Assembly (NCBI GenBank): GCA_903930515.1
Contig: CAIYYW010000207.1
Span: 1-11,362, forward strand
Source: an uncultured delta proteobacterium
GTDB taxonomy: Bacteria; RBG-13-61-14; DRUE01
Direction of reading: 5' to 3'
DNA: 11,362 bases
Shown here piece after piece: positions 1-8,340 of the stretch. A model generated the notes under the pieces. It did no database searches. It saw only the letters and a program-made list of their open reading frames with translations, and was not told the origin of the DNA. Made by a program: the position numbers and the translations under genes. Within the stretch, counting starts at the first letter, position 1. Every line of letters begins with the position of its first letter.

Positions 1-3000
1 CGGAGCCGGCTCCGGCCAAGGTGGGCTTGAAAATCCTTCCGCTAACAACGCCGGTCTGGATCCCGGTGCCGCCTCCTTCGGGATCTTCCAAGCCGGGCAC
101 CAGGGGAACGGCCCGGATATATAACGGGGGACTAGTGGTTCCTTCAAAACACTCCGCCTGGATGATACCGGGGGAGACCATTCTCGCCGGGCCCCGGATG
201 TCCAGGCGATAAAGATTGGTCAGGTCGGTGTAGGTTGCCTGGCCGACCTGCTTCCCAATCACCTGATAGTTCATTCTTTCACAAGCCTTGATGTTGAAGT
301 TCTGGGGCAGGATCATTACCGACCGGGGGTCCACCGTTAGCGAGCTGACATTCACCTGATAGGTTCCCCAAATTCTCGGCAGAAAACGGCTGGCCGGATT
401 GATATTTTCGGGCATATAGACAACCGCCAGGTTATATGGGGAAGGCGTGCCGTTATAAGTCAGGAGAGTGCCGTGGTAACGGCCGTCCCCGAACGGGACA
501 ATCGGGCTCACCTGCACATCCGGCTCTCCCGCGGAAACCGCGACAATCAGATCGGCGATATAAGCGGCGTCACGCGCTTCCTCCTCGTCCATACTGGCGC
601 GCCAACGGATAATAAAGGTGTCGGTGAGCGAGAACCTGGGGTCGTTATGAAGGGCGATTTTATGATGGGTCCAGCCATGGTCCACGCCGTCAAAATCCCA
701 GACCGGCACCCAGGTCTTGCCGCCGTCGTCGCTCACCTCGCAAACGAATTCCTGCCTGGGAGCGGTCTGCGAAGTATCGGCCATATCAACGGTTTTGGAA
801 AAGAAGGATACATACGCGTATTTATAAGAGCCGAGTTTCAAACTTCTTTCCACCATATAATTTCTTACCTCACCCAAGAACGAGGAAGTCCTTCCCAGGA
901 ACAGATAGCGGCAGTAACCGCCCAGTTCCACCGGGCAGGCTGGCTGACCCTCTCCTGCTTTGATCACGATCCCGGGGTTCGGCCCCATTGGATTGACCAG
1001 TTGGTCATCGCGGAGGACTCCGGATTCCAACACATCATTCGCGCCGGGGTTGACGCATTTAAAGTAAGGGTCTCCCTTTCCAGAGGGGATTAACTGGAAA
1101 TCATCTGCAGCCGCGGTGGTTTGGCAAACCCCGTTTAATCCGGTGTTGATAATGCCGCCGCTAGACTGGTCATCCCCGCCCGGGGTGGTGTTAAGGACCT
1201 TGTTGGGTCCGGGCCAGATTGCCTGGGTATAGGGCCGGCCTTGGTTTAAATAGGCGTTGGAATAGTATGCGTCATCACCTGCGAGATTGGAGTCGCAAAC
1301 GCCGTCCCGGCCGGCATCGGTGTAAGCGGCATAATCCACGCACACCATCGGGCTGTCGCAATAGGGCGGGGTATCCTCCCGGTTTTGCGAGAAATCCGCG
1401 TGAAACAACCAATCAAAACCGGTTACGGTCAGATTGTCAATCCAAAAAGTATCCCCGGTGGCGATCAGAAACTCAAACTTTAGATATAGTTTGCTTCCCA
1501 TAACCAGGAAATAATTAGTCAGTTGAAACTCGTCCCAAAGCCAGGCGTTTGCCTGAGATAGCAATTCCGCGCCGTGATAGGCTTTTAATACTTTCCAGGA
1601 ATAATTCTGATCCAGGTAAGAGACGGTCATCGAGCTGTCGTCATAATTCCCGGTGCCTTCATGATATCTCCATTGGAAAGACATTTTGGTCTGGCCGGTG
1701 TCCCATACCATCGGGTCAACAGTTATTTGCTGGTAACCGCTGGCAATGGCCTTGAGCGCGGAGGCTTCAAACCATCCTCCGCTGCTGCGATCAATGATGC
1801 ATCCGCTCCCGGAGTCGGGTTTAAAGATGGAGAAATTTTCGTAATAATAACCTTTGCCCGGCTCGCTGGAAAGATTGAGCATTCCGCCATTGTTGAGATT
1901 GCGGCTGGAGTAGAGCTTGAACCGGTCCGCAAAGCCGTTGACTGGATTGGAGTACCGGTCGGTGATGACAAAATCAACGCCCATCGGCTCGCCCACATAT
2001 TGAGTCCCGTAAGAAATCCAGGAGATGATGTAAGGGACTGCCTCTTCCGCAACCGGGGTTTTTACGGTCATCACGGCTTGGAGGGTTGCGGTTATGCCTT
2101 TGGAGGAGTCGGGGTTGACCCTAACCTCAATTATGGTCTCGTCGTCCAAATCCATATGGAGCATTCCGCCCACCGATCCCTTGGGGGCGTTTCCCAGGGA
2201 AAGGAACTTATCTGCGGGTTGCCCTTGGATGGTGGTATAATAATTATTATTGTATCTGAACCTTCCCCTCCCGCTGTGAACGGTAAAATATGGCGCGATC
2301 CCGGATTTGGGGTTGCCGAATTCGTCTTCCACCCGCACTAACACCTGGATATCGCCGGCCTTGGCCAGATATGCCGGGGAAATTTGTGGGGTAACCCATT
2401 TGATGGTTACTGGCCGGCTCTTGGGCTGGTAATTGTTCTGGAGGATGCTCCCGGTCTGCTTGGCCAAATCAATGACGCCGTCATCGCCGACGATAGAGGT
2501 AATGAGCTTGCCATTGCTTCCGGGCCCGACGCAAATCTGGTCCGGCACTCCGTTTCCGGCCGGGACTTGCTGGAGGTCGTCTCCGGATGCGGTGGTCTGT
2601 GCGAGGCCGTTTGCTCCTGCGGTTATGAACATCCCGTAGGTGGTGTCATCCCCGCCTGGGGTGGAGTTCAGAACATTATTGGGGCCGGGCGTGATGATCG
2701 TTCCGTAAGGAAAGCCGGAGTTGAGGGGGATCTGTTGAACATCATCCCCGGTCGCGCTGCTATTGCAAATGCCGTTGGCGCCGGTGGTGATAAACCGGGT
2801 GGGCCGGGCCGCGGCTTCGGAGACTCCGAGGTCGTAAATATTGATCCGGGCGTGTCCTCGGAAGTCCATCTGAACCCCGCCGAGCTTGACCTGGTCAACT
2901 CCTCCCACATTGAGCCTGGCTTTGTTCACCAGGTCTTTGAGGTAGTCAACATCTCCTTCTCCGAAAACCCAGTCCGCGTCGGCATCCAGGTATTGCTCCA

Positions 3001-3550
3001 GGAAGTAAGAGTTTTCCGTGTAAGCCGTGGAATAGACGGTGGCGTTCAGGAGGGTTGGGGTATAGTGGTTGCCGCGGCAATCACGCAAATCCGGAGAATA
3101 GGTGGAGGTGGCGATCGAGACAATGGTGGATTCTCCCAGGGGCGCACCGGACTTGAGCCTGAAGTAAACGGTTGAAAGCGTGTGCGCGGGAGTGGTGAAA
3201 TAAGAGCAACTTCCCGGAGAATGAATGTTGGTGTCCGAGATGGTGAGAAAGTGAAGGGAGGCGTTGGTCCGTTCATTCATAATCGGGCTGTTAAACTCGG
3301 CATCATTCCCGGCGGTGGCGCGGGTAGGTTCCAGCAGGTTGGAGTCATAAACTAGTTCCAGATAAATGAATCCCACCGGACTGATGTTAGTGAACGATAC
3401 ATTCACATTCACCGGGAATTCCGACCCGGGGGCAACATTATATACGGGCGCTCCCAGCGAAACCGTCTGCGCCTGCGCCAGGGCTGCCAGAGAAAAACCC
3501 AGGATTACCAAAGCCAGCCGCGTCGCTTTTCCCACTGCGTTATTATTCAT
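1..3550 (-). CDS. Giant secreted repeat protein with cohesin-like and dockerin-like parts (partial, C-terminus beyond window)
   Basis: The frame is open without a stop from an ATG at 3548-3550 to the left edge (1183 residues). The start is supported by GGAGGG four bases upstream and by a signal peptide: a basic start, hydrophobic stretch 12-24, and Ala-Gln-Ala cleavage site near 27. Residues about 29-165 look like a cohesin-type beta sandwich: LVYDSNLLEP around 66-75 matches the family's YDP-x-x-LE strand, followed by STVYFRLKSGAPLGESTI. Residues 189-200 form an EF-hand-like loop (D-x-D-x-D-6-x-D) and a degenerate partner near 229-240, as in dockerins. Repeat blocks lie at about 253-357 and 745-849. 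Between them are Ig-like stretches (about 375-560) and a beta-rich, aromatic region resembling a carbohydrate-binding jelly roll. A second beta-rich region follows block 2. The role is inferred to be cell-surface or extracellular binding or scaffolding; no catalytic motif is visible. Domain names rest on pattern recognition only. Confidence 0.85.
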   Translation of the reverse strand, partial: MNNNAVGKATRLALVILGFSLAALAQAQTVSLGAPVYNVAPGSEFPVNVNVSFTNISPVGFIYLELVYDSNLLEPTRATAGNDAEFNSPIMNERTNASLHFLTISDTNIHSPGSCSYFTTPAHTLSTVYFRLKSGAPLGESTIVSIATSTYSPDLRDCRGNHYTPTLLNATVYSTAYTENSYFLEQYLDADADWVFGEGDVDYLKDLVNKARLNVGGVDQVKLGGVQMDFRGHARINIYDLGVSEAAARPTRFITTGANGICNSSATGDDVQQIPLNSGFPYGTIITPGPNNVLNSTPGGDDTTYGMFITAGANGLAQTTASGDDLQQVPAGNGVPDQICVGPGSNGKLITSIVGDDGVIDLAKQTGSILQNNYQPKSRPVTIKWVTPQISPAYLAKAGDIQVLVRVEDEFGNPKSGIAPYFTVHSGRGRFRYNNNYYTTIQGQPADKFLSLGNAPKGSVGGMLHMDLDDETIIEVRVNPDSSKGITATLQAVMTVKTPVAEEAVPYIISWISYGTQYVGEPMGVDFVITDRYSNPVNGFADRFKLYSSRNLNNGGMLNLSSEPGKGYYYENFSIFKPDSGSGCIIDRSSGGWFEASALKAIASGYQQITVDPMVWDTGQTKMSFQWRYHEGTGNYDDSSMTVSYLDQNYSWKVLKAYHGAELLSQANAWLWDEFQLTNYFLVMGSKLYLKFEFLIATGDTFWIDNLTVTGFDWLFHADFSQNREDTPPYCDSPMVCVDYAAYTDAGRDGVCDSNLAGDDAYYSNAYLNQGRPYTQAIWPGPNKVLNTTPGGDDQSSGGIINTGLNGVCQTTAAADDFQLIPSGKGDPYFKCVNPGANDVLESGVLRDDQLVNPMGPNPGIVIKAGEGQPACPVELGGYCRYLFLGRTSSFLGEVRNYMVERSLKLGSYKYAYVSFFSKTVDMADTSQTAPRQEFVCEVSDDGGKTWVPVWDFDGVDHGWTHHKIALHNDPRFSLTDTFIIRWRASMDEEEARDAAYIADLIVAVSAGEPDVQVSPIVPFGDGRYHGTLLTYNGTPSPYNLAVVYMPENINPASRFLPRIWGTYQVNVSSLTVDPRSVMILPQNFNIKACERMNYQVIGKQVGQATYTDLTNLYRLDIRGPARMVSPGIIQAECFEGTTSPPLYIRAVPLVPGLEDPEGGGTGIQTGVVSGRIFKPTLAGAGS
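1004..1318 (-). repeat. Protein repeat cassette, copy 2 (residues about 745-849 of the giant protein)
   Basis: This is the second copy of the four-unit A-B-A-B cassette. From the first unit's Cys to the last Asp-Asp it spans 97 residues, against 95 in copy 1. Its best-kept parts are PGPNKVLNTTPGGDD (copy 1: PGPNNVLNSTPGGDD) and TGLNGVCQTTAAADD (copy 1: TAGANGLAQTTASGDD). At DNA level the copies are clearly diverged, so the duplication is old or under selection at protein level. Confidence 0.75.
2480..2794 (-). repeat. Protein repeat cassette, copy 1 (residues about 253-357 of the giant protein)
   Basis: This stretch encodes four short units in the order A-B-A-B, each ending in Asp-Asp. Unit A has the form TGANGIC-x-x-x-A-x-G-DD followed by a Q-x-IP segment, and unit B has PGPN-x-VL-x-x-TPGGDD. 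The same four units in the same order occur 490 residues further on in the protein. The acidic Asp-Asp ends and the N/D-G turns suggest calcium binding, by analogy with thrombospondin type 3 and other D-rich extracellular repeats. That function is inference. Confidence 0.75.
2830..2986 (-). other. Dockerin-like EF-hand pair in the giant protein
   Basis: Residues 189-200 read D-A-D-A-D-W-V-F-G-E-G-D, so positions 1, 3, 5 and 12 of a calcium loop are all Asp, as in dockerin and EF-hand loops, followed by a helix-like DYLKDLVNKA. A second loop about 40 residues later (MDFRGHARINIYDL) keeps position 1, the hydrophobic position 8 and Asp at position 12, but has Arg and His at positions 3 and 5. 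The first loop looks able to bind calcium and the second looks degenerate. The pair directly follows the cohesin-like domain. Confidence 0.45.
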
Positions 3551-7623: not shown

Positions 7624-7703
7624 CCGGCTGCGGGCTGCTGATTTTCAAGCCGGAACAAATTCTTTTTCGCGGACCTGGATCAACTGGATCGCCTCGGTCG
7701 GGC
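7624..7703 (-). repeat. 80-bp direct repeat, left copy (detached 3' end of the iron-sulfur gene)
   Basis: This copy matches 8261-8340 at 78 of 80 positions; the two differences are T/C near the stop codon and A/G eight to ten bases on. On the minus strand it still encodes the last 18 residues and stop of the 4Fe-4S protein (PTEAIQLIQV then REKEFVPA), plus 21 bases past the stop. It has no upstream coding part, so it is a gene-tail duplicate. The toxin gene stops seven bases to its right. Confidence 0.9.
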
Positions 7704-7709
7704 TTAATT

Positions 7710-7979
7710 TTATCTTTGCCGGTAAGCTTCTCTTCGGTGAACCAGATGGTAGATGGCCACCAATTTGTTTTTATCATCAATGGTATAAAACACCCGATAA
7801 TCTCCAACCCGGAGCCGGTATTCATCATCAGCGCCCTTTATTTTTTTTGATTGGACCGGACGCGGATTTTTCTCCAGTGCGAGAATTTTTCCCACCAGCC
7901 AGGGGATTAACTTGCGGTCTATTTTGCGGATATCCTTATCAAAGGAGCGGGCGAAAACCAGTTCATAAGAGACTGTCAT
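7710..7979 (-). CDS. RelE/ParE-family toxin
   Basis: The protein is 89 residues long, the normal length for this type II toxin family. The conserved C-terminal half is clear: YRLRVGDYRVFYTIDD at 54-69 and HLVHRREAYR at 78-87, with the basic residues and the terminal Tyr that ribosome-dependent mRNA interferases of the RelE group use. ParE toxins, which act on gyrase, share the fold, so the target is not settled by sequence alone. The ATG at 7977-7979 lies inside the antitoxin gene, overlapping it by 17 bases, with GAAAGG eight bases upstream. Translation is therefore likely coupled to the antitoxin. The gene order (antitoxin first) is the usual one. The stop codon sits seven bases from the left 80-bp repeat. 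Confidence 0.9.
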   Translation of the reverse strand: MTVSYELVFARSFDKDIRKIDRKLIPWLVGKILALEKNPRPVQSKKIKGADDEYRLRVGDYRVFYTIDDKNKLVAIYHLVHRREAYRQR

Positions 7980-8260: not shown

Positions 8261-8340
8261 CCGGCTGCGGGCTGCTGACTTTCAAGCCGGGACAAATTCT
8301 TTTTCGCGGACCTGGATCAACTGGATCGCCTCGGTCGGGC
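8261..8340 (-). repeat. 80-bp direct repeat, right copy (3' end of the iron-sulfur gene)
   Basis: This copy spans the last 59 bases of the iron-sulfur gene, including its stop, and the 21 bases after it. It is 78/80 identical to 7624-7703, and the distance between copies is 637 bases. Inside it, CCGGCT (8261-8266) and AGCCGG (8285-8290) form an inverted repeat straddling the stop codon, which may serve as a weak terminator stem or a recombination target. Confidence 0.9.

Follow-up and report, generated by a model that had tools for sequence, protein, structure and literature searches.

The giant secreted protein encoded in the window, by which we mean the whole stretch of 11,362 nucleotides that was analysed, contains two copies of a four-unit repeat cassette that is a real, conserved and unnamed module, with a loop best explained as a longer form of a described calcium loop. 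We consider it probable that the cassette is a calcium-stiffened module of four loops of the GspG/PERCAL type, which serves as a spacer in this protein and as a loop insert in others.

The window is the entire contig C207, one of the 401 contigs of the genome. Its minus strand contains, at positions 2-3550, a single open frame of 1183 amino acids that runs off the contig end, so that the 3' end of the gene is cut; the same genome encodes a second giant protein on contig C342 (L009), with both cassettes at matching places, and a third on contig C165, which is truncated after the first cassette. The first 119 bases are identical in C207 (window 1-119) and C342, which points to an assembly break at identical paralogues and thus accounts for the missing end of the gene. 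No downstream contig was found in G000 when it was searched with a longer homologue from genome G002, and no homologue of the window protein that lacks the cassette was found. The units of the G002 homologue make up a single run that follows the dockerin, and the unit profile detected none in its C-terminal part. Elsewhere in the window there are two 80-base direct repeats (7624-7703 and 8261-8340; 98% identical), the second of which overlaps the end of an iron-sulphur protein gene, and an ORF on the minus strand between them (7710-7979) resembles, by eye, a RelE-like toxin.

The visible part of the giant protein, with all coordinates on the minus strand, starts with a signal peptide (by eye; residues ~1-27, window 3470-3550), followed by a cohesin domain (residues ~28-177, window 3020-3469). 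The Pfam Cohesin match (E 6.5e-4) is below the curated cut-off, and the first 150 residues of the structural model are a clear cohesin, with a Foldseek match to solved cohesins at E 2.5e-9 and a VIA match to 5nrm_A (Z 17.0, rmsd 2.2 over 137 residues) that identifies the cohesin fold. The next stretch (residues ~188-245, window 2816-2989) is dockerin-like by sequence alignment; its loops are degenerate in the window protein, whereas the G002 homologue contains, by eye, clear DxNxDGxxxxxD pairs. The dockerin type I family (PF00404) has no Pfam match in either protein, and the model of this region is not confident. Within one chain, the cohesin fold and the dockerin-like stretch after it (window 2816-3469) make a non-cellulosomal cohesin-dockerin pair. 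Downstream of the first cassette lies an Ig-like domain (residues ~385-505, window 2036-2398), assigned from a weak Big_1 match (E 0.17) and the strands in the model, and downstream of the second lies a Reelin-subrepeat-B-like beta sandwich (residues 878-1003, window 542-919; weak Pfam match, E 0.058). At the contig end, window 2-61 probably encodes the start of a carboxypeptidase-regulatory-like domain, with 40% identity to the G002 homologue, in which CarboxypepD_reg was matched with E 8.3e-7, just under the cut-off.

The original prediction was that window 1004-2794 (residues 253-849) includes a cassette of four units ending in Asp-Asp, present twice in the same ABAB order. Alignment and motif bear out this arrangement, including the A/B alternation. 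However, the predicted starts, at residues 262 and 752, already lie within the first unit, about 10 residues late; the borders are near residues 252-357 and 742-849, and the cassettes are 106 and 108 residues long, not 95 and 97. Cassette 1 (window 2480-2797), which is delimited by alignment, motif and predicted structure, consists of unit A1 with the loop GANGICNSSATGDD (residues 257-270, window 2741-2782), B1 with GPNNVLNSTPGGDD (289-302, window 2645-2686), A2 with GANGLAQTTASGDD (312-325, window 2576-2617) and B2 with GSNGKLITSIVGDD (344-357, window 2480-2521). Cassette 2 (window 1004-1327), delimited by alignment and motif, consists of A1 with GRDGVCDSNLAGDD (747-760, window 1271-1312), B1 with GPNKVLNTTPGGDD (781-794, window 1169-1210), A2 with GLNGVCQTTAAADD (804-817, window 1100-1141) and B2 with GANDVLESGVLRDD (836-849, window 1004-1045).

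All eight units fit the motif G-x-[ND]-x-x-x-x-[TS]-x(3,5)-D-D, which occurs nowhere else in the protein, and the fuller search motif, G-x-[ND]-[GNKED]-x-x-x-[TS]-x(3,5)-[DE][DE], likewise matches only these units; shuffled versions of the protein gave 0.0145 motif matches on average and at most one. Aligned end to end, the two cassettes score 256 (shuffles: mean 33, sd 6, maximum 61), and in the whole-genome search they match with 49% identity and E 5.5e-26. The motif starts at residues 257, 289, 312 and 344 in cassette 1 and at 747, 781, 804 and 836 in cassette 2, that is, with spacings of 32/23/32 and 34/23/32. After an A unit the connector is long, with 11 residues that often read Q-x-I/V-P-x-x-x-G-x-P, and after a B unit it is very short, with about two, which accounts for the 32/23/32 spacing. 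Cysteines are either absent from a cassette or number at least two, and their places in units A and B are fixed, which hints at a disulphide between the paired cysteines of the two units.

The isolated cassette was modelled with AlphaFold2, whose models do not place ions, from an alignment of 14 rows, namely the cassette and 13 homologous cassettes. The mean pLDDT was 94.3 and the pTM 0.81, with all five models between 93.3 and 94.3, and the succession of a short strand, a 15-residue loop ending in Asp-Asp and another short strand is repeated four times. The cassette is thus predicted to be a compact module (pLDDT 94), as had been proposed. This confident fold depends on the 14-row alignment, given that the cassette reached a pLDDT of only ~25 in a 478-residue model based on five aligned sequences. 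Comparison of the cassette model with the PDB yielded no Foldseek match at E <= 0.001, VIA gave no match at Z >= 2 among 220 chains, and no fold match was found among viral models; these negative searches are no proof of a new fold.

Sequence searches of Pfam, NCBIfam and the PDB with the cassettes and with unit pairs likewise returned nothing real. The T2SSG profile matched neither the cassettes nor the whole protein, HemolysinCabind (PF00353) had no match at E 10 in 15 unit pairs, and TSP3 (PF18884) matched no unit, its best matches in the two loci with adjoining TSP3 repeats (L015 and L072) lying outside the units. The view that the cassette belongs to no named domain therefore stands for Pfam, NCBIfam and the PDB, but it has a precedent, in a shorter form, in the calcium loop of PERCAL and pseudopilins.

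The PERCAL motif, G-x-D-G-x-x-[GN]-[TN]-x-D-D, was defined from insertions in bacterial animal-type heme peroxidases, and a PERCAL peptide binds calcium with a Kd of 33-79 uM (PMC3396595). The pseudopilin GspG (PDB 3G20) has this loop, PGPDGVPNTEDD, in which P114 and V119 bind calcium through the main chain and D117, T122 and D125 through their side chains (PMC3396595). In the loop-column alignment, residues equivalent to the GspG ligands are present in the units, in the same order: among 67 aligned units, N or D occupies the D117 column in 64 and T or S the T122 column in 66, and the position of the last Asp holds D or E in 59. The Asp/Asn/Gly loop thus matches one that was experimentally shown to bind calcium, and we infer from this likeness that the cassette binds calcium as well. 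The strict PERCAL motif has no match in the window protein, whose eight units conform to the longer form only, because the loop is 3-4 residues longer between Thr and Asp-Asp and position 3 is mostly Asn.

A profile-profile comparison aligned the unit with pseudopilin C-termini in the same loop register (probability 79%, E 1.6e-5), a match that is supportive but short of proof because the pseudopilin set was picked from unit-carrying genomes; several canonical pseudopilins score no better than shuffles with the unit profile. The end of one T2SSG-like pseudopilin, CVSAGPNGILETT...GDDV, is unit-like, with 20.3 bits against the unit profile (shuffles at most 3.7), and intermediate pseudopilin-like forms occur in G058 (LFSGGPNGVVDTVDFSVDAPGGDDLVLYL) and at L084 (CVSAGPNGILETTDQDRWIQGDDV). 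At L084, in genome G495, the end of the ORF is a T2SSG-like pseudopilin, and its C-terminal loop scores like a unit. The pilin loop and the repeat may be linked through this pseudopilin. Pseudopilin G was found in all eight genomes tested, which makes it plausible that the unit proteins leave the cell by type II secretion.

In the mechanism we propose, each unit would consist of a beta-strand, a calcium-binding loop of 14-15 residues and a second short strand, the loop being a lengthened form of the GspG/PERCAL calcium loop. Four units in ABAB order, with alternating long and short connectors, would fold into one compact module, which calcium ions, probably one per loop, would lock once the protein leaves the cell. 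The two modules of the window protein would then be stiff spacers, the first behind the cohesin-dockerin head and the second between beta-sandwich domains, and in other proteins in-frame insertion would have placed units in the surface loops of unrelated secreted domains. The repeat itself, the purifying selection on it, its presence in unrelated hosts, a single clean insertion and its likeness in sequence to the GspG loop are established. The compact fold is a prediction from the structural model, and we infer that the loops bind calcium, one ion each, and that the module has a stiffening role.

Some of the same observations could be accommodated by a structural repeat that is independent of metal, in which the loops are plain turns in a small beta module and the likeness to GspG is convergent. 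Such a repeat could explain the preponderance of Asn over Asp at position 3 and the middling pseudopilin scores. However, the conservation extends beyond turn residues to the ligand-equivalent Thr/Ser and the terminal Asp, the profile match keeps the loop register, and the intermediate pseudopilins share the long loop, so that we regard convergence as rather unlikely.

Turning to the distribution of the calcium-stiffened module that we favour, the cassette profile matched in all three genomes examined from the phylum of the window genome. Among 386 genomes chosen as relatives, only these three and G058, the only genome of its phylum in the sample, matched with either profile. Strict seed patterns searched against 84,980 species genomes identified one locus, L015, in a genome labelled Phycisphaerae, where the motif spacing is 33/24/34; 11 of 392 sampled genomes of the phylum of that genome match, some of them weakly. 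In plasmids, phages and viral contigs, no protein-level relatives were found. Looser units are also present in two large proteins on contigs C194 and C109 of the window genome, longer relatives of which (1613 amino acids in G001 and 1440 in G002) start, by eye, with a lipoprotein signal. A family of giant probable lipoproteins (L012, L032 and L030) occurs in all three genomes of the phylum, with units either scattered or in ABAB order, and the gene next to L012 resembles, by eye, an outer-membrane barrel of the PorV/FadL type.

The proteins that harbour units are varied, with some of the domain assignments below Pfam cut-offs or made by eye. Units lie between TSP3 repeats (L015 and L072), in an NHL-propeller protein (L091), in a protein whose active site is matrixin-like (L078), in a transglutaminase-like protein (L076) and at the break of a beta-helix/pectinesterase-like protein (L041 and L039). 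In this last case, in G058, a beta-helix/pectinesterase-like gene ends in units on one of contigs C51 and C8, and units followed by a beta-helix open the other; L041 and L039 are probably a single gene broken at the repeats. In the transglutaminase-like domain of G415, units make up about 125 amino acids, and none are present in its homologues from six further genomes of this phylum. In these homologues, the part with C-x-A-W is close to the part with NH-x-[IV]-V-x-Y-x-G-K-x-Y-D-P-S-Y-G, and the G415 units lie between the two; by this sequence comparison, they are a clean in-frame insertion in the transglutaminase-like domain. The proposed role as a spacer between beta-rich domains thus fits the window protein, with its cohesin-dockerin head, cassette and Ig-like domain, but not the units found elsewhere inside host domains, among them a transglutaminase-like and a metalloprotease region.

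Extracellular multidomain proteins headed by a cohesin contain the cassette, as do large probable lipoproteins encoded in the same genomes, and this could also indicate a ligand-binding or adhesion module, with a function in recognition instead of spacing and calcium as a structural aid only. We consider this improbable, given that no conserved surface residue stands out beyond those of the loops and that the host proteins are functionally diverse.

At the DNA level, the two cassettes have diverged, as the original prediction held (dS 1.28, dN 0.55, 45% amino-acid identity). Between the two paralogues, dN is 0.44 and dS 1.4 for cassette 1, and dN 0.36 and dS 0.62 for cassette 2. With dN/dS of about 0.3-0.6, the cassettes are under purifying selection, and it is the protein that is conserved, not the DNA. 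Most of the gene is otherwise saturated at synonymous sites between the paralogues, and a 63-base stretch of cassette 2 (window 1097-1159; L009 residues 834-854) differs by one base. This stretch and the lower dS of cassette 2 suggest local gene conversion between the paralogues. An in-frame mobile DNA element tolerated by the protein, like the Rickettsia palindromic elements, could account for the sporadic distribution and for insertions inside unrelated domains but is very improbable, considering the saturated synonymous sites, the conserved protein and the lack of near-identical DNA copies except for one stretch between paralogues. A palindromic form of such an element had been considered because 'DVVAG' and 'AGDDV' are reverse complements, and it was rejected: when 85 units were folded and compared with synonymous-codon resampling, hairpins were not in excess (mean z 0.05; 2 of 85 below -2).

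The calcium-stiffened module, if real, would be an unnamed building block, shared across phyla, among the calcium-dependent spacer modules of bacterial surface proteins. Furthermore, it would imply that the GspG/PERCAL loop can multiply into a domain of its own and enter other folds, and with the cassette profiles one could annotate parts of giant proteins that are otherwise blank, in bacterial phyla about which little is known. A bolder version, which we put forward tentatively and hold to be less likely, is that the ABAB cassette forms a new domain that stands by itself, is stapled by calcium and has a fold so far absent from solved structures. It would derive from a pseudopilin-type calcium loop and would have spread across phyla by dropping, like a plug-in, into loops of unrelated secreted domains.

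Among known systems, RTX repeats are similar to the cassette in being Gly/Asp-rich, tandem calcium repeats of secreted proteins. They are nonapeptides, GGxGxDxUx, stacked every 9 residues, whereas the cassette loops recur every 23 and 32 residues. The TSP3_bac repeats (PF18884), which are acidic and serve bacterial surface proteins as spacers of the calcium type, adjoin the units in L015 and L072, but the units are without the DxDxDGxxDxxE pattern. With GspG (T2SSG, PF08334; 3G20), the units share the succession of a strand, G-P-[DN]-G-V-x-N-T, D-D and a strand, with the ligand-equivalent residues in the same order; in GspG, however, a single loop ends the pilin fold, whereas the cassette loops are longer, in tandem and without a pilin fold. 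PERCAL is similar in the pattern Gly-x-Asp/Asn-Gly...Thr...Asp-Asp, in the presence of several copies per protein, in insertion into host domains and in its occurrence in secreted giant proteins of bacteria. The cassette differs from it in the loop, which is 14-15 residues long instead of 11 and commonly has Asn for the first Asp, in the ABAB arrangement of its units, with fixed spacing and a predicted compact module, and in the host domains that it enters.
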